This document shows, in pieces, positions 591 to 21,575 of a stretch of 42,574 nt of DNA. Every line of letters starts with the position of its first letter. The first letter of the stretch is position 1. The position numbers and the translations under genes are program-made. The stretch is from Deltaproteobacteria bacterium. GTDB lineage: Bacteria; Desulfobacterota; Syntrophia; Syntrophales; Smithellaceae. The notes beneath the pieces were generated by a model. The model searched no databases, was not told the origin of the DNA, and saw only the letters and a list, made by a program, of their open reading frames with translations. The stretch is taken from positions 1-42,574 of the forward strand of contig JANYAY010000058.1 in assembly GCA_025361065.1 (NCBI GenBank), given 5' to 3'.

Positions 591-1331
591 TTAATGCAGA
601 GAAAATATTCGAGTGAATATGAGGCGGGTGAAAGTCAGGGAGTTGCGAATAAAATCGACAAATGGGCGGAAGTGGGAAATTCTTGAGCCGTCAGGGCTAT
701 AGACAACCCGGACCGGAGTTTCCAAAACCGGCAGCCCCTTTCTTTTGGCCTGTACCAGGATCTCTACTTCAAATTGAAAGCGCTGTGCCCGGGTAGGCAA
801 AACGATGGCCTCGGGCAAAGGGTAAATGCGCATGCCGCTCTGAGAGTCGGAAAGAACAGGTCCACCCGACAGCCGGACCCAGAAATTGGAGAATTTCCGG
901 CCAAAGCGGCTCGTCCAGGGTACGTGTTTTCCAACCATGCCTTCTCTTGTCCCCACTATAATCGCCCTTGCTCCCGAAGGAATTGCGGCAATAAGATTTA
1001 GTGCATCCTCCGGGTAATGCTGGCCGTCGGCATCTATAGTAATCGCCCAGTCGGCTTCGACGGCAGCGGCGGCAAATCCGCTCATCAGGGCTGCACCCTT
1101 GCCCATATTCTTTTTATGGCCGATAATCCGAATATCTTTAATGTCTTTAATCTCATCTCGAGTATTATCAGTCGATCCGTCATTCACAACGAATACCGGA
1201 AAGCCCAGGGCCTGCGTCCGCCGGATAACCTGGGCGACAGTACCGGCATGATTGTAAACGGGGATGACAAAAGCGAAACGACCTTTCCGATTTATTTCCG
1301 GAGATAATATTTTTTCATGGACATTGCTCAT
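591..1331 (-). CDS. family 2 glycosyltransferase
   Basis: This is a GT-A fold glycosyltransferase of the dolichol-phosphate-mannose-synthase-like GT2 type, about 246 residues. The N-terminal segment FAFVIPVYNHAGTV, the nucleotide-sugar site VVNDGSTDNT and the metal-binding region ITIDADGQHYPED are all clear. No C-terminal membrane segments are obvious, so it probably acts at the cytoplasmic face of the membrane. It is the last gene of the nine-gene operon. The start chosen is the ATG two bases after the stop of the upstream FakAB-like gene. An in-frame ATG 36 bases further upstream (1367) would overlap that gene and is the alternative. GT2 genes are a regular part of aryl-polyene type clusters, so it may glycosylate the acyl product or its lipid anchor. 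That role is inferred from context. Confidence 0.85.
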   Translation of the reverse strand: MSNVHEKILSPEINRKGRFAFVIPVYNHAGTVAQVIRRTQALGFPVFVVNDGSTDNTRDEIKDIKDIRIIGHKKNMGKGAALMSGFAAAAVEADWAITIDADGQHYPEDALNLIAAIPSGARAIIVGTREGMVGKHVPWTSRFGRKFSNFWVRLSGGPVLSDSQSGMRIYPLPEAIVLPTRAQRFQFEVEILVQAKRKGLPVLETPVRVVYSPDGSRISHFRPFVDFIRNSLTFTRLIFTRIFSLH

Positions 1332-1333
1332 AA

Positions 1334-3052
1334 TTATTGCAACTCCGGCAGGAAGGCTATTGCCCATGTTCCCGGTCCCATATGGGCGCCCGAGGTCAGT
1401 GACAGCGGCTGAATAATTATTTCGGCATGCGGATAACTTTCCGCGATCAATGGCTTAATTGTATCATTGACCAAATCATAGTTATCAGAATACTCCAGCA
1501 TTATATATGCTTTTGCTTCTTTGGTCAGAGATGCCGCCAGCTTCTCCCGGGCCATCTTTATCTGATCTTCCTGATTGCGTACCACGCCGACTTTCTTTGC
1601 TCCTTCGGGTTGCGGTGATATAACCGGCTTCATCTTCAGCATGTCCCCGAAGAAGGCACTTGTTTTAGATAATCTGCCACCGGCGGCCAGATACTCCAGC
1701 TTATCCAAAAACACATATTCCTCGCAGGCCGAGACAGCCCTGGTGGCAAATATAATTGTCTTTTCCACATCATTTGTTTGATTTAAATAACGCTCAGCCG
1801 CCAGCACCATAGTCGCCAATCGGCCTGATGCGGCGCCGGTATCAATAACAATAAGCCGGTTTTGCGGATCGTGTTGTTTTTTCCATTCCACGGCAGTACT
1901 ATAATTGCCTGTGTAAATAGAACCAACACATAAATACAATACTTTTTCAAACCTCTCCAGGATGCTTTCGTAAAACTGATGTCGCTCAAAAATTGACGCC
2001 TGTGATGTTGATACTTTGATTCCCTGCCGCATTGCGGCATAAAGTTCCCCGGGATGAAGATGTGTTTCCGGCAGGCATTTTCCGCCCATATTTATATAGC
2101 TATGCAAAAGGGTGATGCCACTTTTTTTCGCATCGGCACGGGTCAGGGAACCGGCGGCATCGGTCATTATGTGCAGTCTTTTATTGGATTGGGCATTGCG
2201 CAATTCATTAATTTGCTGATTCAGATTATCGTCTTCCCAGTTTACCATGCGCCCGAGTTTTGCCGCTTCGCTTCTTATCCTTTCTCTGTTTTCCGTATGC
2301 AGATGTATTTTATAAAGATCACCTTCGGGAATAACAATCACGCTCTCTTGCTCATTGGTTATGTTCGCCAATTTCTCTGCCGATAAATTTTGTGCGGAAA
2401 CAACAAAATCAACACAGTAGCCGGTTTCCGCCTCTTCCTGAAATGCCGGAGAAATATGCAGACGATTTTTGAACAGTTCCATGATCGGCCGGTATTCGCG
2501 CGCGGTTGGGGCGAGGGAAGAGAAAAAACCTTCAAAGAAAATATACATTCCTAAAGCACCGGCATCCACAACCCCGGCCTTTTTTAATTTCGGCAGCATT
2601 TCGCAGGTGTCGTGGACTGATTTTTCCAAACGATTAATCAGGGAATCGATTGCCTCCTGATCGAAGATAGCTGCACCGGATGTCAGGGATTCCGCCAGTG
2701 CATCGAATACTGAAAGCATTGTGCCCGGACGGGGATCATTTACAGCCTTCCAGGCGCGCGCGCGTCCTTCCTGCGCGCAATCATAAATGTTTGCCGCAGA
2801 ATCAATCCGGTAGAATGCCGAAAAAAATCTGGAGGCAATATTGCCGGAATTACCGCGGGCGGACAAAAGGAGCTGGCGGATAATTGTTTCTTTTTCCTGG
2901 TGGTCCATCAGCAATGGTGTCAGGCTGATGAAGAGATTACGGCCGGTATCACCATCGGCTACGGGAAAAACATTAATCGAATCGAGTAAATCCGCCCAGG
3001 CGGCAACACGTTCCACTCCGGCAATAAAGGCTTTGCGCAATACCTCATCCAT
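1334..3052 (-). CDS. FakA-DegV fusion: DAK2-domain kinase joined to a DegV fatty-acid-binding domain
   Basis: This 572-residue protein joins two partners that are usually separate. Residues about 1-200 are a DhaL/DAK2 kinase domain with the ATP/Mg motifs DGDTGRN (33-39), ARGNSG and VDAGALG. Residues about 200-290 match the FakA middle domain. From about 295 to the end is a DegV domain, with ITDAAGS-like start (IMTDAAGS), a STSQAS lipid-head-group motif, GSIYTGNYSTA and AAGGRLSKTS. In the Firmicutes FakA/FakB system DegV proteins hold a free fatty acid while FakA phosphorylates the carboxyl group. Here DegV replaces the usual FakA C-terminal region. The start overlaps the thioesterase stop as ATGGATGA, so translation is probably coupled. 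In this operon it may make an acyl-phosphate from an acid released by the thioesterase; that is inference. Confidence 0.85.
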   Translation of the reverse strand: MDEVLRKAFIAGVERVAAWADLLDSINVFPVADGDTGRNLFISLTPLLMDHQEKETIIRQLLLSARGNSGNIASRFFSAFYRIDSAANIYDCAQEGRARAWKAVNDPRPGTMLSVFDALAESLTSGAAIFDQEAIDSLINRLEKSVHDTCEMLPKLKKAGVVDAGALGMYIFFEGFFSSLAPTAREYRPIMELFKNRLHISPAFQEEAETGYCVDFVVSAQNLSAEKLANITNEQESVIVIPEGDLYKIHLHTENRERIRSEAAKLGRMVNWEDDNLNQQINELRNAQSNKRLHIMTDAAGSLTRADAKKSGITLLHSYINMGGKCLPETHLHPGELYAAMRQGIKVSTSQASIFERHQFYESILERFEKVLYLCVGSIYTGNYSTAVEWKKQHDPQNRLIVIDTGAASGRLATMVLAAERYLNQTNDVEKTIIFATRAVSACEEYVFLDKLEYLAAGGRLSKTSAFFGDMLKMKPVISPQPEGAKKVGVVRNQEDQIKMAREKLAASLTKEAKAYIMLEYSDNYDLVNDTIKPLIAESYPHAEIIIQPLSLTSGAHMGPGTWAIAFLPELQ

Positions 3053-3470
3053 TGGAAAAACCTAAAGCCCGGCGGATATCATCCGGAATCTTGAAGATCG
3101 TTTCCATTTCCGGAGCCTTTACCGTCACCTGTTCGGTGCGGCCGCGGGCGCAGATTTTACCATCATCCGCCTTATGAATTTCAAAATCGACAACAAGTTT
3201 TACGCGTGCGTCCACAAGTGTCGCCTTGATAATAATTTCATCGCGGTAGCGCAACGGATAGATATGCTTTGTTGAAGTTCGAATTATGGGGAAAATTAAT
3301 TTATATTGCTCATAGTAGGAATATAAATTTACACCGCAACTATCGAAAAGTGCGGCACGGGCAATTTCAAAATAGTTCAGATAGTTGCCGTGCCAGACTA
3401 TCTGCATGGGATCGAGATCAAAAAAAGGCACACAATATTTTACTTCGATACTTTTTCTATTTTCATCCAT
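3045..3470 (-). CDS. hotdog-fold acyl-CoA/ACP thioesterase (4HBT family)
   Basis: A 141-residue single-domain hotdog protein. The family signature is complete: PFFDLDPMQIVWHGNYLNYF with the catalytic Asp of the 4-hydroxybenzoyl-CoA-thioesterase class, followed by IARAALFD. Near-identical DxDPMQxVWHGNY signatures are familiar from thioesterases of aryl-polyene clusters (recalled, not searched). It would hydrolyse an aryl- or acyl-thioester to the free acid. The gene is locked between its neighbours: its ATG shares one base with the lyase stop (TAATG), and its stop overlaps the FakAB-like start by 8 bases. A free acid released here could feed the fatty-acid-kinase fusion encoded next; that order is inferred. 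Confidence 0.9.
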   Translation of the reverse strand: MDENRKSIEVKYCVPFFDLDPMQIVWHGNYLNYFEIARAALFDSCGVNLYSYYEQYKLIFPIIRTSTKHIYPLRYRDEIIIKATLVDARVKLVVDFEIHKADDGKICARGRTEQVTVKAPEMETIFKIPDDIRRALGFSNG

Positions 3471-5056
3471 TATTTAATCCTAAAGAAATCAGAATACCTG
3501 ATGGCAATGCACATACGTTCAATGTCCGCATCCAATGGCCTGTCTTCAATTACCGGTTCACTGACCAAGCGGATTTTTTCGTGAACCTTGGCCAATAATG
3601 GCCTTACTTTCACATTCTGCCGAATATCACAGGCCTGTGCTGCCGCCAGAAGATGTATCGACAAAACGCGTTCCGTTAAAGTGCAGATTCTTTCTGCATC
3701 GCGTGCCGCAATTGTCCCCATACTGACCTTGTCCTGATTATGCGATTCCGTAGAACGCGAAAACGATGCCGCGGGCATTGTTCCTTTTAAAGCCTCCGCC
3801 GTCAGAGCTGATGAAGAAATAGACATCGCCTTAAAACCATGACGCAGACCGGCTTCCTGGGCGGACATTCTTACTAAATCACCCGGCAATCCCCTGTTTA
3901 AATTCGGATCAACCAAGAGCATCGTCTGGCGGTCACACATATCGGCAACTGAAGCCAATGCCGCTTTCAGTCCGTCCATGGCAAAAGCAATATGTCCGCC
4001 GTAAAAATTGCCGCCCATGATAACCGTACCCGATGCCGGATCAAATATAGGATTGTCATTGGAACTATTGGCTTCAATTTCCACCCATTTCCTTATCCAG
4101 GAAAGAGCGTCGCACAATACACCCAATACCTGCGGCGCACAGCGCAGGGAGTAAGGATCCTGAAGTGTTTCCAGTGTATCATCTTCCAGTTGATTTGCCG
4201 ATACTTTTGCCGCGAGCAAGCGGGCAATCTGCGCGGCCACAAAAGTCTGGCCGGGAAAAGGTTTAGCCTCCGCCAGAACCGGATGGTAATGATGAGCGTT
4301 ACCTTTTAAGGCATGAACACAAAGCGCCGTGGAATAGACGGCGCCATTTAAAATACGGGTTGCTCTTTCTACGGCCAGCGCGGCAATTCCGGTCATGGTA
4401 GTAGTACCGTTGACCATGGAAAGCGGCTCTTTGGGCAAATACTTATACGGTTTGAGTCCGGTTTTTTTTAAGGCGCGAACCGTCGGCATTCTTTCGTCGC
4501 GATAAATAACTTCCCGTTCACCGGCGAGGCAGGCGCCAATATAAGACATCGGCGTCAAATCGCCGGACGCTCCGACGGATCCTTCACAGGGAACGACCGG
4601 CGTTATTCCGGAATTTAAGAAATCCGCCATTTGCTGTAACAGCGCGACAGACACCCCCGAATACCCCCGGGCGAGGCAAATTATCCGGCACAACATCGCA
4701 CCGCGCGTTTCCTCAATACCGATGGGTTCCCCCGTGCCACAGCCATGAAAACGGAAAATATTTTCACCGTTTTTCAGGGCTACATTCAGGGACATCCTGC
4801 TGCCACATGATTTACCATACCCGGTGTTCACTCCATAAACAGGTACATCCCGGCGCAGCGATTCCATGAGCATTTGCTGCGTTTTTTTCATCCGCTGCAA
4901 AAAGCCTTTATCTTTGCTTATCCTGACTCCAACGCCATCGCGCGCGACGCGGATGATATCATCAAAACAGATATTGCCTCCGTCGATAACAACAACGGGC
5001 CGGCTGCCAAATTTCTTCACGGTTAAATCATCACTTTCTGTTTGAATCCCGCTCAC
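3470..5056 (-). CDS. aromatic amino acid ammonia-lyase (HAL/TAL/PAL family, MIO enzyme)
   Basis: A complete 528-residue MIO-dependent lyase. The Ala-Ser-Gly triad that forms the electrophilic cofactor is at 163-165 in GSVGASGDLTPMS, and the catalytic Tyr lies in YGVNTGYG (Tyr74). The segment that sets amino-acid selectivity reads NIFRFHGCGTG, giving Phe103-His104 where bacterial tyrosine ammonia-lyase has His-Leu. No hut genes are nearby. The neighbours (CoA ligase, KS/CLF, thioesterase) point to a biosynthetic lyase making cinnamate or coumarate as a starter, not histidine breakdown. The longest frame starts at a GTG that sits in the loop of a repeat-borne hairpin with no Shine-Dalgarno. A GTG at 5020 (giving VKKFGSRP) is a real alternative start. 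Product specificity cannot be fixed by eye. Confidence 0.88.
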   Translation of the reverse strand: MSGIQTESDDLTVKKFGSRPVVVIDGGNICFDDIIRVARDGVGVRISKDKGFLQRMKKTQQMLMESLRRDVPVYGVNTGYGKSCGSRMSLNVALKNGENIFRFHGCGTGEPIGIEETRGAMLCRIICLARGYSGVSVALLQQMADFLNSGITPVVPCEGSVGASGDLTPMSYIGACLAGEREVIYRDERMPTVRALKKTGLKPYKYLPKEPLSMVNGTTTMTGIAALAVERATRILNGAVYSTALCVHALKGNAHHYHPVLAEAKPFPGQTFVAAQIARLLAAKVSANQLEDDTLETLQDPYSLRCAPQVLGVLCDALSWIRKWVEIEANSSNDNPIFDPASGTVIMGGNFYGGHIAFAMDGLKAALASVADMCDRQTMLLVDPNLNRGLPGDLVRMSAQEAGLRHGFKAMSISSSALTAEALKGTMPAASFSRSTESHNQDKVSMGTIAARDAERICTLTERVLSIHLLAAAQACDIRQNVKVRPLLAKVHEKIRLVSEPVIEDRPLDADIERMCIAIRYSDFFRIK

Positions 5057-5147: not shown

Positions 5148-6377
5148 CTAATCGCGTTTACGCGGTTTATATGTATTGTCCGCTTTTTCCTTTTCCATAA
5201 CTTTTTTCAGAAGTTTAAACATTTTGTAATTTTGCGGCTCTTCCTCGTAGAACTTGTCCCAGACATAATAATACATTTCCTGAAGCTTCTCCGGGGCCAT
5301 CAACTTGGGCTGGAATACCACTTTGCCGCAGGTGTAATTGTTCCAGTCGTAGGAAAATATTCTGCCGGCGTTATGCAAATCGTCAAACGTCCGGGTGTGC
5401 GGAAACGGCGTCAATACTGTAAACTCAGCCATATCAAGCTCAATTTCGAGCAGAAAATCAACCAGCCGCTTGATATAATCTTCCGTATGATAATCGAGTC
5501 CCAAAAGAATGCTGCCTTCCACGCCGATGCCGTAATCGTGATACCGTTTAATGCGGTCACGGATAAAATCGGAAGAATCAAATATCGCCTGATAAACAAA
5601 CCAGGCACCCGCCTGTGCCGCCAGATCCAATACCTTATCATCATCTTCAATAGGATGGCAGCACCATTTCTTTTTCAGGGGAATCATTTCTTTAAACAGA
5701 CCAATTTCCCAATCTTTGTCCTGAGCCAGCGAATTATCGACAATGAAAAGCCGGTTGTTATCAATGCTCGCCATTTCTGCAATGACTTTATCAAAAGGGC
5801 GGGGCCTGAAATTACGTCCACCTAAAAAATTAACACAACAGGGATAGCAATTGAAACGGCAGCCGCGGGAAGCATGAACCAGATCGACCATCTGCACACC
5901 GCGGTAATTATACATATCCCGGTTTAAAATGCTGCGCCGGGCCGTTCCGACACTTTCAATCGGCAGAAAATCATGCATGTAGTTATAAACTTTTTGCAGT
6001 TTGTTGTTTTTTAAATCGGTAAAGACTTTTTCCATCCGGCCTTCCGCCTCGCCCAGGAAAACGGCATCCGCATGCAATTCAGTTTCTTCGGCATGCAGCA
6101 TGGTGGCAATGCCGCCGAATATTACCTTGATGCCTTTTGCCCGGAAAGTGTCGGCAATTTCCCAGCCGCGTTTGGTCTGCACGGTCAACATCATGGATAT
6201 GCCGACCAGATCGGCTCCCGATTCGAAATCAATGGGTTCAACGTTTTCATCGATGAACTCCACTTCCACATCGGCCGGCAGCGCTGCGGCCATCACAACC
6301 GGGCCATGCGGCGGCAGGGTGAAGCGCGTCTGACGTTCCAGTTTTTCCCATTTAGGATATATTAGTTTGAATTTCAT
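5148..6377 (-). CDS. B12-binding-domain radical SAM protein
   Basis: 409 residues. An N-terminal Rossmann-like cobalamin-binding-type domain (about 1-130, with DLVGISMMLTVQ and IKVIFGGI) is followed by a radical SAM barrel. The [4Fe-4S] motif is CX3CX2C at Cys173, Cys177 and Cys180 in HASRGCRFNCYPCC. The N-terminal domain lacks a DxHxxG motif, as is common in this class, so cobalamin may bind base-off without a protein His, or not at all. Family members methylate unactivated carbons, rearrange rings or couple radicals; this one's reaction cannot be read from sequence. It lies in the same direction as the lyase/KS operon, flanked on both sides by intergenic repeats. Its GAGGGG ribosome site lies just outside the repeat at 6391. 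An oxygen-independent tailoring role is inferred. Confidence 0.85.
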   Translation of the reverse strand: MKFKLIYPKWEKLERQTRFTLPPHGPVVMAAALPADVEVEFIDENVEPIDFESGADLVGISMMLTVQTKRGWEIADTFRAKGIKVIFGGIATMLHAEETELHADAVFLGEAEGRMEKVFTDLKNNKLQKVYNYMHDFLPIESVGTARRSILNRDMYNYRGVQMVDLVHASRGCRFNCYPCCVNFLGGRNFRPRPFDKVIAEMASIDNNRLFIVDNSLAQDKDWEIGLFKEMIPLKKKWCCHPIEDDDKVLDLAAQAGAWFVYQAIFDSSDFIRDRIKRYHDYGIGVEGSILLGLDYHTEDYIKRLVDFLLEIELDMAEFTVLTPFPHTRTFDDLHNAGRIFSYDWNNYTCGKVVFQPKLMAPEKLQEMYYYVWDKFYEEEPQNYKMFKLLKKVMEKEKADNTYKPRKRD

Positions 6378-6517: not shown

Positions 6518-7660
6518 TTATGATGTTATTGCCTTGGCAATAATAACCTTCATTATTTCATTAGTGCCGGCAAGAATGCGCGTGATGCGGATGTCGCGCC
6601 AGGCACGGGCAATCGGATATTCTTCACAATAGCCATAGCCGCCAAACAGCTGCAAACAACGGTCGGCCACGCGCCAGGCCATCTCGGTGATCCAGAACTT
6701 CGCCATGGAGACGTCAATGACGACAGTGTTTTTCTGCCAGTGTTCCACTATCATTTTATCTACAAAAGTCCGGCCAATCCTGACTTCCGCCGCCATCTCC
6801 GCCAGAACAAACTGTGTGTTTTGAAATCCGGTTAACGGTTTGCCAAACAGCTGCCGGCTTTTGCAATAGCGAATCGTTTCTTCCAGCATGAATTCTGCCG
6901 CAGTCTGTGCACCGATGGTGCAGATCAGGCGTTCCTGCTGGAGATTGGTCATCAGATTTTTAAAGCCGGTGCCTTTTTTGCCCAAACGGTTTTTCTTGGG
7001 AATCCGGCAATCGGCAAAAAATAGTTCCGCCGTATCCTGGCTGCGCCAGCCGATTTTGTTGAGCCGTTTGCCTTTGACGAAACCCGGCGTTTCCGCCTCC
7101 GCCAGAAACAAATCAACCGCGGCGTGGGGATTGGCTTCCCGGGGATCTTTGGCCGCCACAATCACCAAATCGCAATTGATTCCATTCGAAATAAACGTTT
7201 TCTGGCCATTGAGAATAAAGAAATCGCCGTCTTCCACAGCAGTGGTCTGAATACCGGCCAGGTCGCTACCTGTCTGAGGTTCCGACATGGCAATCGCCGT
7301 CAGTAAATCACCACTGATGCAGCCCGGCAGATATTTCTTCTTTTGCTCTTCGGAGGCCAGTTGGACAATATAGGGCACCACTACGTCGCCATGCAGGCGC
7401 GCGGAAAGCCCATAAAAGTTGGCTTTGGCCATCTCTTCAATCAATATGGCTGAATAAAGAAAGTCGGCACCCTGACCACCGTATTCGGGCGACACGGACG
7501 TGCATAAAAACCCATTATCTCCCAGTTTCTTCCAGGCCCAGCGGGGAACAATTCCGTCTTCTTCCCACTGGTCCACATGGGGAACAATTTCTTTTTCCAG
7601 AAATCTCCGGAAAGACGCCCGAAAAATGCGATGTTCTTCCTGATAAGGTACAATTTCCAT
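6518..7660 (-). CDS. acyl-CoA dehydrogenase (long-chain type)
   Basis: A 380-residue FAD enzyme of the acyl-CoA dehydrogenase superfamily with all three domains: N-terminal helices, the beta domain with AIAMSEPQTGSDLAG and NGQKTFISNG, and a C-terminal helical domain with QLFGGYGYCEEYPIAR. The position of the usual catalytic Glu (IYEGT in MCAD) is ILAGT, so Ala replaces it. A Glu pair in MLEETIRYCKSRQLFG suggests the base sits in helix G, as in long-chain enzymes. The gene starts 7 bases after the ligase stop. In the operon it would introduce a 2,3-double bond (or the reverse) in an acyl-CoA, presumably passing electrons to ETF. Its exact step in a polyketide-like pathway is unknown. Classical aryl-polyene clusters do not carry such a gene. 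Confidence 0.88.
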   Translation of the reverse strand: MEIVPYQEEHRIFRASFRRFLEKEIVPHVDQWEEDGIVPRWAWKKLGDNGFLCTSVSPEYGGQGADFLYSAILIEEMAKANFYGLSARLHGDVVVPYIVQLASEEQKKKYLPGCISGDLLTAIAMSEPQTGSDLAGIQTTAVEDGDFFILNGQKTFISNGINCDLVIVAAKDPREANPHAAVDLFLAEAETPGFVKGKRLNKIGWRSQDTAELFFADCRIPKKNRLGKKGTGFKNLMTNLQQERLICTIGAQTAAEFMLEETIRYCKSRQLFGKPLTGFQNTQFVLAEMAAEVRIGRTFVDKMIVEHWQKNTVVIDVSMAKFWITEMAWRVADRCLQLFGGYGYCEEYPIARAWRDIRITRILAGTNEIMKVIIAKAITS

Positions 7661-7667
7661 TATCTGC

Positions 7668-9188
7668 CTAATTTTCTTCCAGCCGGTTTTTTAAAATTCT
7701 CTTTAGAACCTTTCCTGATTGATTGCGAGGAAATTCTTCCACAAATATTATTTTTTTGGGTATTTTGTAATGGGCTATTTTCCCCTGGAGGGCGGCCAGA
7801 ATTTCATTTTCCGTAAGGGGCGCATTTTGCTGCAAGATAACAAAAGCAGCAACAACTTCGCCCCGTTTGGGGTCAGACATGCCGACGGCGGCGGCCTCCT
7901 TTATCTGCGGCAGTGTCTGAATTGCCCGTTCTACTTCCACCGGATAAATATTTTCGCCGGAAGAAATTATCATCTCTACTTTCCGCCCGACAATATAAAC
8001 AAACCCGTCTTCATCGCGCCGGCCCATGTCGCCGGTGTGAAACCAGCCGCCTTTCATCGCAACTCCGGTTGCGGCTTCTTTCCCCCAGTAACCGGCAAAT
8101 ACATTGGGTCCTTTGACAAGGATTTCTCCGGATGCAAGCGGAGGAAGATCATTGCCCTGGTCATCGACAATGCGCAAGTTAACATGAAATACTTCTTTGC
8201 CGACGGATCCGGCCTTACTGATCGAATCTTCCAGGTCCAGTGAAGTCAGGCGTCCAGTTTCCGTCAGGGCATATCCCTGCACGAATCCGACACCCTTTTC
8301 CTCCTGATATTTTTTAATTACCGGCAGGGGGATGGGTGCGCCGCCGGAAATAAAGAAATGGACATGGGAAAGGTCGGCACTTTTCCATTCTTCCGCTTCG
8401 GCCATAAGCTGAAACATTACGGGCACGGCAAACATGTAGTTTATTTTTTCTTTGCAGATCATGCTCAGTACTTCGGAGGCATTATAAAAGCTGCTGATCA
8501 CGATGCTGCCTCCGGCATAAATAATCGGTGTCACCGAAGCCGCCAGGGCGCCGATGTGAAAGAGCGGAGCAACAACCAGCGATTTGTAGGAACGATCAAC
8601 ACCGTAACCTAAAAGGGAATGAATCGCCCCGAATAAAATATTTTGATGGGTTAACACCGCGCCTTTCGGGTCACCGGTGGTGCCGGACGTATACATGATG
8701 AAAAGCGGGTCTTGCAGGTCCACCTCATCGATAATCGGCGGTTCGGCGGCGGAATATTGATTTACATAATCAGAAAATAACGCATCTCCGGGAAGTTCTC
8801 CTCCCTGCCGTAGATACTTTTTTACAAAAACACCTGCTGCTTTAATCTCCTCAGTTTTCGCGGCAAATTCGTCACAATAAATTAACAGGCAGGGTCCGGA
8901 ATCTTTAACGATGTATACCAACTCCGGCACTGCCAGCCGGAAATTCAGCGGTACCATGATGGCGCCAGTTTTAGCACAGGCAAAGAATATTTCCAGAAAC
9001 TCGCTGCAATTGGACATGAGCAGGGCTACGCGGTCGCCCTTCATAACCCCCAGATTGCCAAGGGCGTTGGCTGTTCTATTCACACGCTCATTGAACTGCC
9101 GGTTGTTATAAACTTTCTCTTTGTCGGTCAAAAAGGGCTTTTCCGGCTGAATTATGGCCCGCTTGCTGATCCATTCACCTATATTCAA
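7668..9188 (-). CDS. AMP-forming acyl-CoA (aryl-CoA) ligase
   Basis: 506 residues of the ANL superfamily. The P-loop-like A3 motif is YTSGTTGDPKGAV, followed by the GYALTETG motif, the hinge region WFHTGDMGRRDEDGF and the C-terminal catalytic Lys in QSGKVLKR. It would activate a carboxylic acid to acyl-AMP and then to the CoA thioester (or load a carrier protein). The translation start is a TTG; the AGGAGG ribosome site ends about 10 bases upstream, and no better in-frame ATG exists near it. The gene lies between the chain-length-factor gene (15-base gap) and the acyl-CoA dehydrogenase (7-base gap). Given the ammonia-lyase in the same operon, cinnamate or coumarate is the natural substrate guess; this is inferred and the substrate pocket was not analysed. 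Confidence 0.88.
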   Translation of the reverse strand: MNIGEWISKRAIIQPEKPFLTDKEKVYNNRQFNERVNRTANALGNLGVMKGDRVALLMSNCSEFLEIFFACAKTGAIMVPLNFRLAVPELVYIVKDSGPCLLIYCDEFAAKTEEIKAAGVFVKKYLRQGGELPGDALFSDYVNQYSAAEPPIIDEVDLQDPLFIMYTSGTTGDPKGAVLTHQNILFGAIHSLLGYGVDRSYKSLVVAPLFHIGALAASVTPIIYAGGSIVISSFYNASEVLSMICKEKINYMFAVPVMFQLMAEAEEWKSADLSHVHFFISGGAPIPLPVIKKYQEEKGVGFVQGYALTETGRLTSLDLEDSISKAGSVGKEVFHVNLRIVDDQGNDLPPLASGEILVKGPNVFAGYWGKEAATGVAMKGGWFHTGDMGRRDEDGFVYIVGRKVEMIISSGENIYPVEVERAIQTLPQIKEAAAVGMSDPKRGEVVAAFVILQQNAPLTENEILAALQGKIAHYKIPKKIIFVEEFPRNQSGKVLKRILKNRLEEN

Positions 9189-9203: not shown

Positions 9204-10454
9204 TCAATTGGAACAGTTACCCAACACCAGATAAACGTAAGTGCCGCCGAAAGAAATACCGGCCAGCAGCGCATTATCGATTTTAATTGCCTCTTCACGT
9301 TCCCGGACGAATGCCAGTGCGATCAGGGGATCTGTCAGTCCGACAGTCGGCGGCAAAGCGTTTTTTTCGAAAGACAAGGCCAGAGCACAGGCTCTGATTC
9401 CGCCACCGGAAAAACTTTCTCCGAGAGCGCCTTTGAGAGAAGTAATCAAAGGCCGGCTGCCTTCCCCGGCAAACACTTCGGCATAGGCTGCCGCTTCGCT
9501 GCGGTCCAGTATTATGCCGCCGTTGGCTGCGGCGGAAATCACCATGATATCCTGCGGGCCGACCCCGGCATTTGCCAGCGCCCGTCCGATGGTCTTTTTT
9601 ACGCCTGCGGCGTCATTCGGCCAGCTGGTAGGCCCGGTGGGCGAGGAGCCCTGTCCAAAACCCTTTATTTCACAATACGCTTTTCGCCCTCTGGCCGCTG
9701 CCGATTCCCAGCTTTCAATACACACGATGCCGCAACCTTCTCCGGCGACTGTGCCGTTGCGGTGGAGGTCAAAAGGACGGCAGGACTCGATTTTCCCGTC
9801 TAAAGGGGAAAGCGTGGAAAACCGGGTCAGCGCTTCATAATAAAATTTGGATAAAATGTCCACACCTCCGGCAAGCATGAAGTCTGCCGCACCGCGGCGT
9901 ATTTCTGATACGGCATAGGCGATGGCCGTTTCCGCGGAAACGGCAAAATGAGTCACTGTGGTATTGACCCCGCGGAAACCAAGCTCAATGGAGGCATGCC
10001 CGGCTGGCGCATTCATAACCGTGTTCGGAACCAAAATCGGGTTGACAAAGGCGGGACCTTCTTTAAATAGTGTTTCGGCAAACTGGCAGGTTACATCGGT
10101 TGCGCCAAAAGATGTTCCCAGCAGAATGCCGATGCGGTCGCGGTTGTCGGGATTGACCGTAAGCCCGGCATCTTCCAGCGCCAGACGGGCGGCAGCTGTC
10201 GTCAGCTGTGAAATCCTGTCCATCCGCCGGATGTTTTTCACCGAGATAAAATCGCGCGGTTGAAAATTAGTAACTTCCGCACCCAGATGCGCGGGGAATG
10301 CCGATGTATCAAAAGATTGAATTGGGGCAATGGCACTCTCGCCGGCAAAAATCCGGCGGTTGAATTCTTCCTTGCCGATTCCCAGGGGCGTCACCATGCC
10401 GATACCGGTGATAACAATTCTTTTGGCGGCTCCGGTCAGTTGTTGATCATCCAT
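9204..10454 (-). CDS. chain-length-factor-like ketosynthase lacking all catalytic residues
   Basis: A 416-residue thiolase-fold protein aligned end to end with the KAS II encoded just upstream, but the catalytic triad is gone. The nucleophilic Cys is Ala171 in THFAVSAETAIAYA. The first His (NAHGT in active enzymes) is replaced in ISAAANGG, and the second His (MTAHTLG) is Glu in GALGESFS. This is the pattern of a chain-length factor, which pairs with an active ketosynthase and sets product length, as in type II PKS and in the KS-CLF pair of aryl-polyene systems. The ATG chosen overlaps the KS stop as ATGGATGA, behind AAAGGGGTG. An in-frame ATG seven codons earlier (10475) has a weaker ribosome site. 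The tight overlap fits stoichiometric production of a heterodimer. Confidence 0.88.
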   Translation of the reverse strand: MDDQQLTGAAKRIVITGIGMVTPLGIGKEEFNRRIFAGESAIAPIQSFDTSAFPAHLGAEVTNFQPRDFISVKNIRRMDRISQLTTAAARLALEDAGLTVNPDNRDRIGILLGTSFGATDVTCQFAETLFKEGPAFVNPILVPNTVMNAPAGHASIELGFRGVNTTVTHFAVSAETAIAYAVSEIRRGAADFMLAGGVDILSKFYYEALTRFSTLSPLDGKIESCRPFDLHRNGTVAGEGCGIVCIESWESAAARGRKAYCEIKGFGQGSSPTGPTSWPNDAAGVKKTIGRALANAGVGPQDIMVISAAANGGIILDRSEAAAYAEVFAGEGSRPLITSLKGALGESFSGGGIRACALALSFEKNALPPTVGLTDPLIALAFVREREEAIKIDNALLAGISFGGTYVYLVLGNCSN

Positions 10455-11697
10455 TGTGGACACCCCTTTGGTCATACTTGCCGAAGATTACCGTCGTATT
10501 ATTGCCGCCAAAGGCAAACGAATTGGAAAGCACGATGCGCAGGTCGGCCGGCCGTGCGCCACTGGTCACGTAATCCAGGTCGCACAGCGGGTCAGGATTG
10601 CGATAATTGATAGTCGGCGGTATAAAGCCCTGCGAAAGTGCGAGGATGGAAACAATGCCTTCCAGGGCACCGGCCGCACCCAGCGTGTGGGCAGTCATGG
10701 CTTTGGTCGAACTTACCGGAAGGGATTTGGCCCGCGGGCCGAACACTTCCTTAATCGCTTTTGTTTCCATGATATCATTGACCGAAGTTGCCGTTCCGTG
10801 GGCATTGATGTAATCAATATCTTCGCTTGTAAGGCCGCTATCTTTCAGGGCCGCCTGCATGGAACGGACGGCGCCGGAGGCTTTTTCATCAGGCGCCGTC
10901 ATATGGAAAGAATCGCAGGTGACGCCGTAGCCGAGAACTTCACCATATATTTTAGCTCCTCTGGCCAAAGCCGCATCCAATGATTCCAGAACCATTATTG
11001 CCGCCGCTTCGCCCAGAGATAAGCCCGCGCGGTCTCTATCGAATGGATGGCAGGTTCCCGGGTCGAGTGATTTTAAAGCATTAAAGGCCGCGTAAGTAAT
11101 CCGGCACATGGGCTCCACTCCACCTACGATCATCGTCTGCGCCTGGCCGCCCGCAATTAAATCCCGCGCATAACCGATGGCCGTGGCTCCCGCCGAGCAG
11201 GCCGTCATAAATGTTGCTTTGGGGCCGGACAGTCCGAAACCGGAAGCGATACGATCGGCGGAAGATGCGCAGTAGACGGTGGAAAGCTTGGAAAAACGTG
11301 CATCTCTGCCGTTTTTTTCCAACAAATCTTTATAAAATGATTCCGCTTCGAGAAGCCCGCCGGAACCGCCGCCGATTACTACACCCGTTTCTTCAGTCAA
11401 CTGTCGCGGCATTGGATAAAGGCCGGCATCGCTCAGTGCTTCCAAAGTGGCGGCAAAGGAGAGCATGTCCGCCCGGGACATTCTCTTGAGGGAAAAATCT
11501 TCCGGAATGTAATCGCGGGGAGCAAAATTCTTGATTTGGCCGCCGTTTTGACAGCGAAATCCGGCAGTTTCAAAAAGGTCTACCTGTTGGATACCGCAGA
11601 CTCCTTTGCGCAGTGCCGCAGCAAAATCAGGAATATTGTTGGCAATCGCGTTTAGCGTTCCCAATCCGGTTATTACAATTCGTTTCTTTGTTTGCAT
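10447..11697 (-). CDS. beta-ketoacyl-ACP synthase II (active ketosynthase)
   Basis: A complete 416-residue KAS II/FabF-type condensing enzyme. The catalytic residues are Cys167 (MTACSAGATAIG), His300 (INAHGTATSVND) and His337 (TKAMTAHTLGAAGA), with the conserved Lys332 and the C-terminal NSFAFGGNN loop. It would extend acyl-ACP by two carbons using malonyl-ACP. No acyl carrier protein, ketoreductase or dehydratase lies in this window, so those partners must come from primary metabolism or elsewhere. The open frame extends to 11826, but residues before MQTKKRIVITGLG are not conserved in the family. The ATG at 11697 follows GGGATTGGGA. It is the first gene of the minus-strand operon, so the promoter should lie between it and about 12000. 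Confidence 0.9.
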   Translation of the reverse strand: MQTKKRIVITGLGTLNAIANNIPDFAAALRKGVCGIQQVDLFETAGFRCQNGGQIKNFAPRDYIPEDFSLKRMSRADMLSFAATLEALSDAGLYPMPRQLTEETGVVIGGGSGGLLEAESFYKDLLEKNGRDARFSKLSTVYCASSADRIASGFGLSGPKATFMTACSAGATAIGYARDLIAGGQAQTMIVGGVEPMCRITYAAFNALKSLDPGTCHPFDRDRAGLSLGEAAAIMVLESLDAALARGAKIYGEVLGYGVTCDSFHMTAPDEKASGAVRSMQAALKDSGLTSEDIDYINAHGTATSVNDIMETKAIKEVFGPRAKSLPVSSTKAMTAHTLGAAGALEGIVSILALSQGFIPPTINYRNPDPLCDLDYVTSGARPADLRIVLSNSFAFGGNNTTVIFGKYDQRGVHNG

Positions 11698-12036
11698 TCC
11701 CAATCCCGAGATTATTATTTGCGGCCGTTTTTCAAGTGGCTGAAACTTAGATTGGGCGGGGGAAAAAGTCAAATAAATATTACAATTGATAATATCACAG
11801 TTCCCGCCGGCACGCCGAAATAACATCTCAATCTTGATTATTGCTTCCTGTGTTTAAGCAGCCATGAGGTCTTTCCCGGCAGGCGCCAGCCGAAAGGGGT
11901 TCTTTTAAAAATCGTGATGGGCAGAAAAAGCGCTTGACACGATAATATAATTTTATTACTGATATGAATAAGATTCATAATATGAACAATATAATGTTTT
12001 AAAATTTAAATCATGGCGCCGGAGAAGGGGGTCTTT
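11698..12036. other. divergent promoter region between the two large operons
   Basis: 339 bp separate the ketosynthase start (minus) from the carboxyltransferase start (plus). The part near 11930-12010 is strikingly AT-rich compared with its surroundings. A TTGACA hexamer at 11934-11939 could serve the plus operon, but the best -10 at 17 bp (TACTGA) is poor. On the minus strand no clear -35/-10 pair was found. The palindromes at 11963-11986 are the strongest regulatory signal. No RNA gene or riboswitch fold was recognised. Confidence 0.55.
11963..11986. promoter_or_regulatory. two overlapping palindromes, probable operator
   Basis: TATGAATaagATTCATA (11963-11979) is a perfect inverted repeat with 7-bp arms. 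Its right arm is shared with a second perfect one, TTCATA-a-TATGAA (11974-11986). AT-rich palindromes of this size between divergent operons are typical targets of TetR-type acyl-CoA-responsive repressors. A TetR gene lies at 22901, but the same motif was not found in front of it, so the pairing is a guess. Confidence 0.5.
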
Positions 12037-13653
12037 ATGGATGTCATCGAAACAAGAATCGATACCCGCTCGGATGAATACCGAAAGAATTACGAAGCGA
12101 TGGAAGTCCTGGTGGCTAATCTGAAAGAGGAACTCCGGATCGCCCGGGAGGATCGTTCCGGGGCTGCCCGGAAACGTCTTCTTTCTCAGGGAAAGATGCC
12201 TGTCCGGGAAAAACTGGATTTCCTGCTGGACAGAAACACCCCATTTCTGGAGATCGCGCCGCTGGCGGCCCGCGGCATGTATGACGGAAAGATCCACGGT
12301 GCCGGTCTCGTCTCGGGAATAGGCGTCATTGCGGGCAAAGAAGTGCTGATTACCTGCAATGACGCGATGATCAAGGGGGGGGCGACCTATCCCCTGACCG
12401 TTAAAAAAAGCCTGCGCTGCCAGACGATCGTGATGGAGAACCGCCTGCCTTGCGTCACCCTGATCGATTCGGCCGGCGGTTTTTTACAGCTTCAATCCGA
12501 GGTTTTTCCGGATATCGATGACGGCGGGAGGCTTTTCTATAACCAGGCGAAAATTTCCAAGATGGGGATTCCACAGATCACGGCCGTGATGGGTTTGTGC
12601 ACCGCCGGTGGCGCTTATATACCCGCTATGTCCGATGAAGTCGTTCATGTCAAGGGAACAGGCGCAATTTTTTTAGGCGGCCCCCCTCTCGTCAAGGCGG
12701 CCACGGGTGAGGAGGTGACGGCCGACGAACTGGGGGGTGCGGACCTGCATTGCCGCGAATCCGGCGTGTCCGATTATTTTGCCGAGGATGACCGGCATGC
12801 CCTCGAGATTTTGCGTAAGATCATCAAAAATCTTCCCGCTACGGAAAAATCCCGCCTGTCCATGCAGGAGCCGGCTCCGCCCCTCTATGACCCGAAGGAG
12901 ATATACGGCATTGTCAGCCGTCAACTTAAAGTACCTTACGATGTCAGAGAAGTGATTGCGCGGATGGTTGATCGGAGTGAATTCCTGGAGTTCAAGGAAC
13001 TGTATGCCCCGACTCTGGTCTGCGGATGGGCTTATATCCATGGCTATCCGGTGGGGATCATCGGAAATAACGGCATCCTGTTTTCCGATAGCGCCCTGAA
13101 AGGCACCCAATTCATCCAGCTGTGTGACCGGCGCCAGATACCGCTCATTTTCCTCCAGAATATCAACGGGTTTATTATTGGCCGTGAGTACGAGCGGCTC
13201 GGCATTACGAAGGACGGTCACAAAATGGTCAATGCCGTGGCCAACGCAACTGTTCCCAAATTTACGGTGATGATTGGTGCATCGTACGGTGCGGGCAACT
13301 ATGCCATGTGCGGGCGGGCGTATTCACCGCGTTTCCTCTGGATGTGGCCCAATGCCGAAATTGCCGTCATGGGAGGGGAACAGGCCGCCGGTGTTCTTGT
13401 CACGTTGAGAAATGACCAGCTGGCCAAGGAGGGGGCGCCCCCGATGTCTGCCGAAGAAGTGGAACAAATCAGCGGACCGGTAATTGCCGCCGCGAGGACC
13501 GAAAGCAATGCCTATTATAGTACGGCCCAGCTTTGGGATGACGGCATTCTCGATCCGGCCGATACACGAGATGTGCTGGGGCTGGCCATATCCGCCGCCC
13601 TGAATGCTCCTATCCGCGACGATATCCTGGGATACGGCATTTTCCGGATGTAG
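12037..13653 (+). CDS. acyl-CoA carboxylase carboxyltransferase subunit (methylcrotonyl/geranyl-CoA type)
   Basis: A 538-residue biotin-dependent carboxyltransferase. The N-terminal crotonase-like half carries GKMPVREKLDFLLD, the oxyanion region DSAGGFLQLQSEVFPD and MGLCTAGGAYIPAMSDE. The C-terminal half has NGFIIGREYE and GASYGAGNYAMCGRAY. These fit MCC-beta (LiuB) and GCC-beta (AtuC) better than propionyl-CoA carboxylase. It transfers CO2 from carboxybiotin to the gamma-carbon of a 3-methyl-2-enoyl-CoA. The start at 12037 follows GGAGAAGGGGG; a further ATG 24 bases upstream lacks a ribosome site. It is the first gene of the plus-strand operon, next to the biotin carboxylase and biotin carrier genes that complete the enzyme. 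Methylcrotonyl and geranyl substrates cannot be separated here without a pocket alignment. Confidence 0.88.
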   Translation: MDVIETRIDTRSDEYRKNYEAMEVLVANLKEELRIAREDRSGAARKRLLSQGKMPVREKLDFLLDRNTPFLEIAPLAARGMYDGKIHGAGLVSGIGVIAGKEVLITCNDAMIKGGATYPLTVKKSLRCQTIVMENRLPCVTLIDSAGGFLQLQSEVFPDIDDGGRLFYNQAKISKMGIPQITAVMGLCTAGGAYIPAMSDEVVHVKGTGAIFLGGPPLVKAATGEEVTADELGGADLHCRESGVSDYFAEDDRHALEILRKIIKNLPATEKSRLSMQEPAPPLYDPKEIYGIVSRQLKVPYDVREVIARMVDRSEFLEFKELYAPTLVCGWAYIHGYPVGIIGNNGILFSDSALKGTQFIQLCDRRQIPLIFLQNINGFIIGREYERLGITKDGHKMVNAVANATVPKFTVMIGASYGAGNYAMCGRAYSPRFLWMWPNAEIAVMGGEQAAGVLVTLRNDQLAKEGAPPMSAEEVEQISGPVIAAARTESNAYYSTAQLWDDGILDPADTRDVLGLAISAALNAPIRDDILGYGIFRM

Positions 13654-13749
13654 AAGCGCAGCCGGGGGAACGCCTCCGGCGAGCGGCCAAAGTAAAGAGA
13701 ATTAAAAGAATTAAATGATCATTGCGGACCGTCCAACAGGAGAGACAGT

Positions 13750-15240
13750 ATGTTCCAGAAGATCCTGATTGCCAACAGAGGAGAAATTGCCCGACGCATT
13801 ATGAATACCTGCCGGGAGATGGGGGTGGCCACCGTTGCCGTCTATTCTGATGTGGATTGCCGGGCGATTCATGTCCTGGAGGCGGACCAGGCCGTCGCTT
13901 TGGGTGATGCCGAACCGGCGGCAAGTTACCTCAATATCGATAAAATCATTACTGCGGCAAAAGAAAGCGGGGCCGAGGCGATTCATCCCGGTTATGGATT
14001 TCTGGCCGAGAACGCAGATTTTGCCGAACGTTGCGAGCAAAACGGCCTGATCTTCATTGGTCCGCCGTCGCCAGTGATTCGTGAATTGGGGGATAAAACC
14101 GTCGCCCGGCAGACGATGATTAAAAATGGTGTGCCCGTCATTCCCGGCATGACTTCCCCCGAGTCCGACCCGGAGACCATTGCCCGCGAGGCCGATCGCC
14201 TGGGATATCCCGTCCTGATTAAAGCAGCGGCGGGAGGCGGGGGAAAGGGAATGCGCGTTGTACAAACACATGCGGAAATTCGCGAGGCCTGCCTGTCTGC
14301 CGCGAGCGAAGCGGCCAGTGCATTCGGCAACGGCTCAATCTACCTGGAAAAGTATCTGGCCCGACCCCGGCATATCGAGTTTCAGATTCTGGCCGACCGC
14401 TATGGGAATGTTGTCCACTTGCTCGAGCGGGAATGTTCCATCCAACGGCGCCACCAGAAAATCATCGAAGAAACACCGTCGCCTGTGATGACGCCGGAGC
14501 TCCGGGAGCGGATGGGAAAGGCGGCCGTCGCGGCGGCCCGCGCCTCCGGGTATGTAAATGCGGGTACGGTCGAGTTTCTGCTGGACGCCGACGGCAGCTT
14601 CTATTTTCTGGAAGTCAACACGCGCCTCCAGGTAGAACATCCGATCACCGAGATGGTGACCGGTATCGACATTGTCCGCCACCAGCTTGCGATTGCCGCC
14701 GGCGATCCGTTGACTCTGGTCCAGGAGCAGATTCAAGGACGGGGGCATGCCATTGAGTGCCGCATTTATGCGGAAGATCCGGAACAGGGATTCTATCCTT
14801 CTCCCGGCAAAATTACTTACATGAAAGAGCCGTCAGGTCCGGGAATACGCAATGATTGCGGTGTCTATTCCGGGTTTCAGGTTCCGATGGAATATGATCC
14901 CATTCTGTCCAAACTAATAGCTCACGCCGAAAACAGAGACGCCGCGATACAGCGCATGATTGCGGCGCTTTCGAGCTACGTCATTGCCGGAATCCGGACC
15001 GCCATTCCCTTTTTAATCGATGTTCTGAGGTCGGAAGCCTTCGTTGCGGGGGAGACATTCACCGATTTTGTGAGCTCCCATTTTGCTGACTGGAAACCGG
15101 AAAGAAAGGATGTCGATATCGCCCGAATTGCTTACATCATCGATGATCTGGCCTCTCAGAGAAGAACAAAAAACTTTTCCGGTGCGGGTGTCGGTGTTCC
15201 GATGTCCCCCTGGCAGAGCCTGGGCAACTGGCGACGATAG
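13750..15240 (+). CDS. biotin carboxylase subunit of acyl-CoA carboxylase
   Basis: 496 residues, a complete ATP-grasp biotin carboxylase. The N-terminal domain begins KILIANRGEIARRI. The ATP lid glycine loop is KAAAGGGGKGMRVV, and the metal and bicarbonate site is EFLLDADGSFYFLEVNTRLQVEHPITEMVTG. It carboxylates biotin using ATP and bicarbonate. MCC-alpha and GCC-alpha proteins are usually about 650 residues because the biotin-transfer and BCCP domains are fused on; here the protein stops after the carboxylase domain plus a short unconserved tail. The missing parts are encoded 44 bases downstream. The ribosome site is AGGAGAG. The 96-base gap before it holds no visible terminator, so cotranscription with the carboxyltransferase gene is likely. 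Confidence 0.9.
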   Translation: MFQKILIANRGEIARRIMNTCREMGVATVAVYSDVDCRAIHVLEADQAVALGDAEPAASYLNIDKIITAAKESGAEAIHPGYGFLAENADFAERCEQNGLIFIGPPSPVIRELGDKTVARQTMIKNGVPVIPGMTSPESDPETIAREADRLGYPVLIKAAAGGGGKGMRVVQTHAEIREACLSAASEAASAFGNGSIYLEKYLARPRHIEFQILADRYGNVVHLLERECSIQRRHQKIIEETPSPVMTPELRERMGKAAVAAARASGYVNAGTVEFLLDADGSFYFLEVNTRLQVEHPITEMVTGIDIVRHQLAIAAGDPLTLVQEQIQGRGHAIECRIYAEDPEQGFYPSPGKITYMKEPSGPGIRNDCGVYSGFQVPMEYDPILSKLIAHAENRDAAIQRMIAALSSYVIAGIRTAIPFLIDVLRSEAFVAGETFTDFVSSHFADWKPERKDVDIARIAYIIDDLASQRRTKNFSGAGVGVPMSPWQSLGNWRR

Positions 15241-15284
15241 ATCAATAACGTGCCGGATGATCGCTATTATGAGGTGAGGAAACA

Positions 15285-15809
15285 ATGAATTACAGATTCA
15301 AGACGGGTGAAGAGACGCTGACTTTTAATGCAGATCCGATCAAAGAAAATCAGCTGAAGGTTTTCACCGGGAAGAAAACGCTCGATGTTCGTTATACTGT
15401 CATCAATGACCATCACGTTCATTGCGTGGTGGACGGCGTCGGTATAAATGCCTTTATCAGCGGCGAAAAAGGCGAAAGAACCATCCTGATTCGCGGTGTG
15501 TCCTATGTCGTTTCTGATGCCGATCTTTCAGCTCAGACCAGAAAAGGTGCGCGGGATCTGACAAAACTTCCCCAGGTGATTACCCCGCCGATGCCGTCGG
15601 TCGTTGTGCGCATAATGGTTGCCGAGGGCGACAGCCTGCAGCGAGGAGACGGCGTCATTGTCCTGACGGCGATGAAGATGGAAACGACCTTGACCGCCCC
15701 TTTTCCGGGACGAGTGGCGGGAATCAACGTGTCCGTGGGTGAAAAGGTCATGCCCGGAAAGATCCTGGTGGACATCGAGAAGGAAGCGGAGGATGCCCCG
15801 GCAAAGTAA
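15285..15809 (+). CDS. biotin carboxyl carrier protein with a BT-like N-terminal domain
   Basis: 174 residues. The C-terminal 80 residues form a biotinyl/lipoyl domain with the biotinylation motif TAMKMETT, where the middle Lys carries biotin. The flanking turns PMPSVVVRIMVAEGD and PFPGRVAGINVSVGEKV are typical. The first 90 or so residues are beta-rich (RFKTGEETLTF, LDVRYTVINDHHVHCVVDG) and look like the biotin-transfer barrel that in MCC-alpha lies between the carboxylase and the carrier. Together with the preceding gene this makes a split alpha subunit. The ribosome site GAGGTGAGG precedes the ATG. The product needs a biotin protein ligase from elsewhere in the genome. Confidence 0.88.
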   Translation: MNYRFKTGEETLTFNADPIKENQLKVFTGKKTLDVRYTVINDHHVHCVVDGVGINAFISGEKGERTILIRGVSYVVSDADLSAQTRKGARDLTKLPQVITPPMPSVVVRIMVAEGDSLQRGDGVIVLTAMKMETTLTAPFPGRVAGINVSVGEKVMPGKILVDIEKEAEDAPAK

Positions 15810-15835
15810 ACATCATATATCAAGGAGGAAATCTT

Positions 15836-16606
15836 ATGAACGATCAACATTTACTCTACGAGGTCGCAGACGGTATCGGCACCATTACGATCAATCGCGA
15901 ACAGCAGCGAAACGCGATTACACCCGAGGCGATTGATCTTTTCCATGCGTATCTCGATGAGGGAGAGAAGGATGAGCGCGTGAAAGCCCTTCTGATCACG
16001 GGGGCCGGCGACAAGGCCTTTTGCACCGGTGCCCAGCTCGCCTCGGGCATGGCGACGGAAGGAAAAGACGTGTTCGGATATTATGCGAGTCTTTTAAACA
16101 GGCTGGCGGGCTTTCCCAAGCCGACGGTGGCGCGCATCAAGGGCTTCTGTCTGGCCGGCGGTATGGGTTTTATGCTGGCCTGCGATATCGTGATCGCCGC
16201 CGCCGACGCCAAATTCGGCACACCGGAAGTGAATGTCGGGCTGTGGCCGATGATGATCGGCGCCCTGATATTTCGCAATGTTCCACAGAAAAGGGCGATG
16301 GAGATGATTCTTCTGGGCGAGCGGATGACCGCCCAGGAGGCCCTGGCCATGGGATTGATCACCCGCGTTGTGCCGGTAGACAAACTGGATGAAGAAGTGA
16401 TGACCGTTCTTACGAGTCTTGCTTCCAAAAGCCCGATCGGAATGCGGCTGGGCAAGCAGGCTTTTTACACAGCAGCAAACATGCCGTTGAAAGATGCCTT
16501 GAATTATCTTTCCGAAAAGCTCAAGGAAGTGGTGAGCACGGATGATGCCCGTGAAGGCATCACGGCCTTCATGGAAAAACGGCCGCCTGTTTTTACCGGC
16601 CGATAA
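15836..16606 (+). CDS. enoyl-CoA hydratase/isomerase family protein
   Basis: 256 residues of the crotonase fold. Oxyanion-hole segments are GDKAFCTGAQLAS and IKGFCLAGGMGFMLACD. In the catalytic region the first Glu is kept (GTPEVNVGLWPMMIG), but the stretch where canonical hydratases have their second Glu is changed to LWPMMIGALIF. Crotonases acting on branched glutaconyl-CoA esters (LiuC, AtuE) diverge in the same area. Next to a methylcrotonyl/geranyl-type carboxylase the expected reaction is hydration of 3-methylglutaconyl-CoA or its isohexenyl homologue to an HMG-CoA-like product. That is inferred from context. The ribosome site is AAGGAGGAA, 26 bases after the carrier gene. No HMG-CoA-lyase gene is visible in the window. 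Confidence 0.85.
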   Translation: MNDQHLLYEVADGIGTITINREQQRNAITPEAIDLFHAYLDEGEKDERVKALLITGAGDKAFCTGAQLASGMATEGKDVFGYYASLLNRLAGFPKPTVARIKGFCLAGGMGFMLACDIVIAAADAKFGTPEVNVGLWPMMIGALIFRNVPQKRAMEMILLGERMTAQEALAMGLITRVVPVDKLDEEVMTVLTSLASKSPIGMRLGKQAFYTAANMPLKDALNYLSEKLKEVVSTDDAREGITAFMEKRPPVFTGR

Positions 16607-16633
16607 ATCATAATCATCGAATAGGGGGAATGT

Positions 16634-18421: not shown

Positions 18422-18473
18422 AGGCTGAAGGCTGAAGACTGAAGGCCGAAGACTGAAGGCCGAAGGTGAAGGA
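18422..18473 (+). repeat. short tandem repeat, heptamer GRCYGAA
   Basis: About seven imperfect copies of a 7-bp unit (GGCTGAA, GACTGAA, GGCCGAA) begin right after the AtuA stop codon. A shorter run of the same unit lies at 25061-25083, also just after a stop codon. No coding or promoter role is visible; the copies look like slippage-prone intergenic filler. Confidence 0.7.
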
Positions 18474-18600
18474 GATGCAACAGTCTGGTGCAAGACAGGG
18501 GGAAGAAGGCGGTTTCCGACGTCCCAACCGCTTCCATTCCCTAAAAAACGTATCACAGAGCATGAAAACAGTATTCCTGGAAACAGGAAGGAGGTGTTCA

Positions 18601-20313: not shown

Positions 20314-20371
20314 ATAATGGGCAAAGGAAAAGCACCTGCGCCCAGTTGAATTTATCCATTAGGAGGAGAAA

Positions 20372-21508: not shown

Positions 21509-21575
21509 ACCGGCGAAGGCCCGAAGGCTGTCGGATGGAGGATATGCTGTACAAACAGGAAACGAGGGAAAAAGG

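Follow-up and report, generated by a model that had tools for sequence, protein, structure and literature searches.

In the well-studied fatty acid kinase systems, FakA and FakB are separate proteins. The acyl-phosphate that such kinases produce is known to be used by PlsY, and PlsX is the known enzyme leading from acyl-phosphate to ACP. FakA of S. aureus is built from three domains, of which the first two are enough for catalysis, and its third domain (FakA_C) shows a FakB-like fold without a tunnel and docks FakB (PMC9136124). Fatty acid kinases have been described as a Gram-positive strategy (PMC10146087). In E. faecalis, the sequence of thioesterase, FakAB, acyl-phosphate and PlsY is established with ordinary fatty acids and rescues plsX mutants (PMC10449490). 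Aryl polyene (APE) clusters rank among the most widespread gene cluster families of bacteria, and the transfer of the APE from its carrier protein to the membrane anchor is an open step (PMC8253772).

Here, we analyzed a stretch of 42,574 nucleotides from a deltaproteobacterial contig (JANYAY010000058.1; hereafter the window), which carries at positions 1334..3052 of the minus strand a DhaL-FakA_M-DegV fusion. The open reading frame, Pfam and an AlphaFold model predict this protein to be a single-chain fatty (acyl) acid kinase. We favor, with a probability of roughly 0.55, that it is dedicated to an APE-type lipid pathway, in which it would activate the released polyene acid for attachment to the lipid.

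Architecture of the fusion and its relation to known fatty acid kinases

The minus strand of positions 1334-3052 forms one unbroken frame of 572 amino acids, and the plus strand of the same stretch contains stops throughout. Pfam assigned Dak2 to residues 30-176 (E 3.8e-18), FakA-like_M (PF21645) to residues 210-283 (E 4.5e-10) and DegV (PF02645) to residues 293-569 (E 4.4e-46), the last of these covering profile positions 2-279 of 280. On the minus strand, these regions correspond to the DhaL/FakA_N ATP-binding domain (2525..2965), the FakA-like middle domain (2204..2425) and the DegV/FakB fatty-acid-binding domain (1343..2176), so that DhaL, middle domain and DegV do lie in one chain, as the original prediction had proposed. 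It had also placed DegV where FakA carries its C-terminal region. Indeed, Pfam found no match to the FakB-docking domain FakA-like_C (PF13684) in the fusion protein or anywhere in the window genome, and a full DegV domain is located in its place. The same domain order is present in 75 distinct relatives of ~39-84% identity, which together with the uninterrupted frame rules out a chance reading frame or an assembly artefact. Moreover, the window genome contains no DhaL or DegV gene besides the fusion.

The AlphaFold model of the fusion is confident (pLDDT 89.3, pTM 0.90) and superposes with S. aureus FakA_N (7rm7) at a Z-score of 23.6, with FakB/DegV crystal structures at 28-33 and with E. coli DhaL at 17.6. 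A closer inspection of the catalytic residues shows that the nucleotide- and Mg-binding residues N32, D38, D40, T41, N82 and D185 of S. aureus FakA correspond to N27, D33, D35, T36, N68 and D163 of the fusion, which are kept in 75/75 relatives. Likewise, the Cys-His-His set of the middle domain (C240, H282 and H284 in S. aureus) is found as C213, H250 and H252 and kept in 75, 74 and 73 of the 75 relatives, respectively. Arg173 of FakB, essential for phosphorylation, is represented by R460 (75/75), T62 by T349 (74/75) and H270 by H557 (74/75); T381 is also invariant (75/75). In the FakB motif SSxxSGT, one of the two serines is replaced by an invariant G377, with the Ser95 equivalent being ambiguous between the two positions. 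As S. aureus FakA_NL alone is catalytically active (PMC9136124), the loss of FakA_C would not argue against activity of the fusion. Arginine 205 is described as fully conserved in FakB, where it docks FakA and meets the membrane (PMC8892158). Its equivalent is relaxed in the fusion clade (Arg in 63/75, His in nine), and in two remote fusions no Arg is aligned at this position, which lies in a variable stretch of the alignment. Such a relaxation would be expected once the partner is tethered.

The fusion scored below the curated cut-offs of the NCBIfam equivalogs FakA_VfrB (107/975 bits) and FakB1 (57/350 bits) and thus, as judged from these scores, is not orthologous to its Firmicute counterparts. 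With FakA and FakB of Staphylococcus, Streptococcus and Bacillus it has in common DhaL, the Cys-His-His middle domain, the FakB/DegV domain and the equivalent of Arg173. In contrast to these, it consists of one chain instead of two proteins, carries a full FakB in the place of FakA_C and resides in a Gram-negative polyketide-lipid cluster.

Single-chain proteins of the same three-domain order also occur in Listeria innocua (WP_207577344.1), E. raffinosus, Acetoanaerobium noterae and two genomes of the window's own order (G012 and G094), which rules out that the fusion is unique. They are 25-28% identical to the window fusion and have no APE genes nearby. Public records already contain this single-chain architecture, annotated as 'DegV family protein'. 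The suggestion that the fusion is peculiar to the pathway therefore stands in part: the window's clade is bound to APE clusters, but the fusion as such also occurs in Firmicutes and, in a same-order genome, beside plsY. It is the APE-type context, not the single-chain architecture, that sets the window's fusion apart.

In separate trees of the DhaL plus middle domain part and of the DegV part, the APE-linked fusions form one fully supported clade with long branches that is separate from split FakA/FakB, with the DegV half being separated from known FakB by a branch of 3.8 changes per column. The G012 and G094 proteins and the three Firmicute fusions group together in both half-trees as a separate, well-supported clade. 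Since both half-trees part the APE-linked fusions from the remote and Firmicute fusions, single-chain Fak proteins represent, as judged from these trees, at least two separate families. The fusion of G012 (27% identical; L093:694-1302 and L093:1332-3134 for the gene pair) adjoins plsY without APE genes, which suggests, as an independent hint, that such fusions make acyl-phosphate. The Listeria innocua fusion (L191:6007-7740) scores 175 bits against DegV and 57 bits against FakA-like_C and is thereby intermediate between FakB and FakA_C.

The aryl-polyene-type gene neighborhood

As anticipated in the original prediction, the fusion is part of a lyase/ketosynthase operon, a co-directional run of genes on the minus strand from 11826 down to 591. 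It begins with a FabF-type ketosynthase (KS) with active-site Cys (10447..11826) and a KS-like protein without this Cys, i.e., of chain-length-factor (CLF) type (9204..10475), followed by an AMP-forming acyl-CoA ligase (7668..9188), an acyl-CoA dehydrogenase (6518..7660) and a B12-binding radical-SAM protein that marks the cluster lineage (5148..6377). Next in line are an aromatic amino acid lyase of the HAL/TAL/PAL type with an ASG motif, the probable source of an aryl starter (3470..5056), and an ApeK-like 4HBT thioesterase, the probable release step (3045..3470), whose gene shares its last 8 bp with the beginning of the fusion gene. The run ends with a GT2 glycosyltransferase (591..1367), the conserved downstream partner of the fusion, whose likely start is an ATG at 1331, 3 bp past the fusion stop. 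This operon combines a KS and a Cys-less CLF with a thioesterase, a GT2 and an aryl starter enzyme, which assigns it to the APE-type clusters, and the gene content suggests an aryl polyene as the product. KR, DH, ACP, LolA, DUF3261 and MMPL are present in the clusters of relatives and in none of the window's genes; window base 1, just past the GT2 gene, is also the first base of the contig, so that whatever lies further downstream in the cluster is cut off here. No Rfam or tRNA match was obtained within the window, and promoter-like matches occurred in it only at chance level. A divergent operon on the plus strand (12013-22550) encodes, as read by eye from the translations, acyl-CoA carboxylase-, enoyl-CoA hydratase-, DUF1446-, acyl-CoA ligase-, acyl-CoA dehydrogenase- and nitronate-monooxygenase-like proteins.

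The closest named relatives of the fusion derive from Desulfobacterota metagenome genomes of the Smithella and Syntrophaceae type. Within the window's family, the fusion was matched in 47/51 genomes. In an even sample of the Desulfobacterota it was found in 30/395 genomes, a count that leaves out G341, G450 and G484 (split FakA and FakB), two DegV-only genomes and one spurious match. A search of the phylum sample with the FakA middle domain returned the same 30 genomes, the three genomes with split FakA and FakB and one borderline match. Fusions of the window type form one clade, seen only in Desulfobacterota in the searches made, which outside this phylum comprised one named-genome scan with a single query sequence and plasmid records. 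We found no paper on an aryl polyene with DegV or on a DegV-DAK2 fusion in a literature search that mostly covered open-access journals.

We read the neighboring genes in 78 loci, many of them from metagenome assemblies. All 46 well-covered loci, i.e., those flanked by 7 kb or more on both sides, belong to APE-type clusters, and the number of APE gene families in their vicinity ranges from 3 to 11 (median 9), so that scattered occurrence without biosynthetic context, named beforehand as an argument against a pathway role, was not seen for this clade. Split FakA/FakB loci and the two remote fusions had 0 or 1 APE gene family nearby, some of these controls being short-flanked. The gene directly upstream of the fusion encodes a thioesterase in 49/75 loci and an acyl synthetase in 16/75; directly downstream, GT2 is found in 50/71 loci and a PlsC-like or LpxL-like acyltransferase in 7/71.

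A putative kinase step after thioesterase release

Domain make-up, conserved catalytic residues, the exclusive APE-type context, the gene order and the presence of PlsY were all read from sequence and comparison, and a pathway can be proposed on this basis, in which the polyene acid substrate, the acceptor and the kinase activity itself are predicted features. The lyase would provide the aryl starter, from which KS/CLF and partner enzymes would build the polyene on ACP, and the 4HBT thioesterase would release it as the free polyene acid. The FakB-like DegV domain would then hold the free acyl chain and offer its carboxylate to the fused DhaL and FakA_M domains, which with ATP would form the acyl-phosphate of the chain. 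Finally, PlsY or an acyltransferase of the cluster, with GT2, would generate the membrane anchor carrying the chain. With its binding protein tethered, such a kinase would have no need of the FakA_C docking domain. The neighborhoods strongly back the suggestion, already part of the original prediction, that a self-contained kinase takes over after the thioesterase, with the kinase activity itself being predicted.

The fate of the acyl-phosphate can be narrowed down by the enzymes at hand. PlsX (PF02504) was found above cut-off in 0/51 genomes of the window's family, and PlsY is present in 30/30 good genomes of this family. Without PlsX, acyl-phosphate cannot return to ACP by the known route, which therefore leaves PlsY or a cluster acyltransferase. 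Tentatively, and with slightly less than even odds, the locus might represent a third route by which a polyketide-type lipid chain is completed, namely thioesterase release followed by re-activation as acyl-phosphate through a dedicated one-chain kinase, which would mark a distinct anaerobic APE lineage whose lipid is built by an acyltransferase using acyl-phosphate. Three observations count against the favored pathway: the acyl synthetase in the upstream position of 16 loci, the sister and E. coli APE clusters without a kinase (see below) and the invariant G377 at a serine position of the SSxxSGT motif.

The kinase could also phosphorylate the product of the lyase, i.e., cinnamate or coumarate, and prime the assembly line instead of acting on the finished chain. 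Lyase, thioesterase and fusion are consecutive in the window's relatives, and several Smithella-type clusters have no acyl-CoA ligase beside the lyase, both of which would fit this role. However, a lyase lies within 10 kb of the fusion at just 29/46 well-covered loci and is missing from many Desulfobulbales-type members of the clade, while 30/46 have a nearby acyl synthetase that could load starters. The full-length match of the DegV domain to long-chain fatty acid binders and the absence of PlsX from the window's family also speak against starter activation, which we consider unlikely. A further candidate substrate would be fatty acids recycled or scavenged to provide the APE lipid with its ordinary acyl chains, as distinct from the polyene chain. 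Known Fak enzymes take ordinary fatty acids (PMC9136124), and LpxL-like and PlsC-like acyltransferases are encoded in the cluster; but the expected donors for these are acyl-ACP or acyl-CoA rather than acyl-phosphate, and the very long branch of the DegV half suggests an unusual ligand, making such recycling rather improbable. That the DhaL part phosphorylates dihydroxyacetone or glycerol for the head group is hardly credible. DhaL is common to dihydroxyacetone kinase, and E. coli DhaL reaches a Z-score of 17.6, yet FakA_N (23.6) and FakB (28-33) score far above DhaL and DhaK, and the Fak-specific middle domain and the Arg173 equivalent of FakB are kept. We therefore rejected a dihydroxyacetone kinase on fold and residues.

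A housekeeping role would have the fusion stand in for PlsX and feed PlsY with ordinary acyl-phosphate for membrane phospholipid. This would agree with PlsY being present and PlsX missing in the window's family, with the fusion as the sole Fak-type gene of its genome and with the related but distinct fusion adjoining plsY in G012. However, none of the 16 genomes that represent the window's order in the phylum sample has PlsX, eight of them with and eight without the fusion, and 19/22 fusion genomes outside the window's family possess PlsX. Mere replacement of PlsX is for these reasons unlikely, and we rejected it as the main role. In addition, genome G063 (96% complete) contains PlsY and no DegV at all, and the fusion is always located in an APE-type cluster. 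The window's order lacks PlsX but retains PlsY.

Activation of the released polyene acid thus is the reading we retain. With a kinase placed after the thioesterase and before the lipid-attachment genes, the anchor-transfer step of APE biosynthesis becomes testable, and the predicted activity would extend fatty acid kinases to Gram-negative anaerobes. Moreover, a one-protein fatty acid kinase, whose covalent link replaces the transient contact of FakA and FakB, would be useful for structural work.

The sister lineage and the E. coli cluster

The radical SAM protein splits the APE-type clusters of Desulfobacterota into two lineages. The fusion is present in 22/22 genomes with the clade-A radical SAM protein (68-100% identical) and in 0/21 genomes with only the sister protein (59-64% identical), counts that are not independent as the genomes are related. 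Nearly all of the 14 sister loci read (L170-L183) contain KS, thioesterase, LolA, MMPL, acyltransferase or GT2 genes, and no kinase gene was found among them. The sister clusters are of the same kind as those of clade A and share the radical SAM family, but their GT2 comprises ~400 amino acids instead of the ~250 in clade A.

The E. coli CFT073 cluster, compared within the coordinates of apeA-R, shares with clade A the KS and CLF, KR, DH, ACP, acyl synthetase and 4HBT thioesterase as well as homologues of GT2, acyltransferases, the MMPL exporter, LolA and DUF3261. GT2 and acyltransferase are combined in one protein (ApeJ) in E. coli, and beyond apeA-R the clade-A clusters carry the B12-radical-SAM proteins and the fusion. 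As neither the sister clusters nor that of E. coli CFT073 includes a kinase, the kinase is an addition of one APE lineage rather than part of every APE pathway, and APE chemistry as such can proceed without it. The B12-binding radical-SAM protein (5148-6377, minus strand), at ~70-100% identity, is the most conserved protein of the fusion-lineage clusters, exceeding even the ketosynthases.
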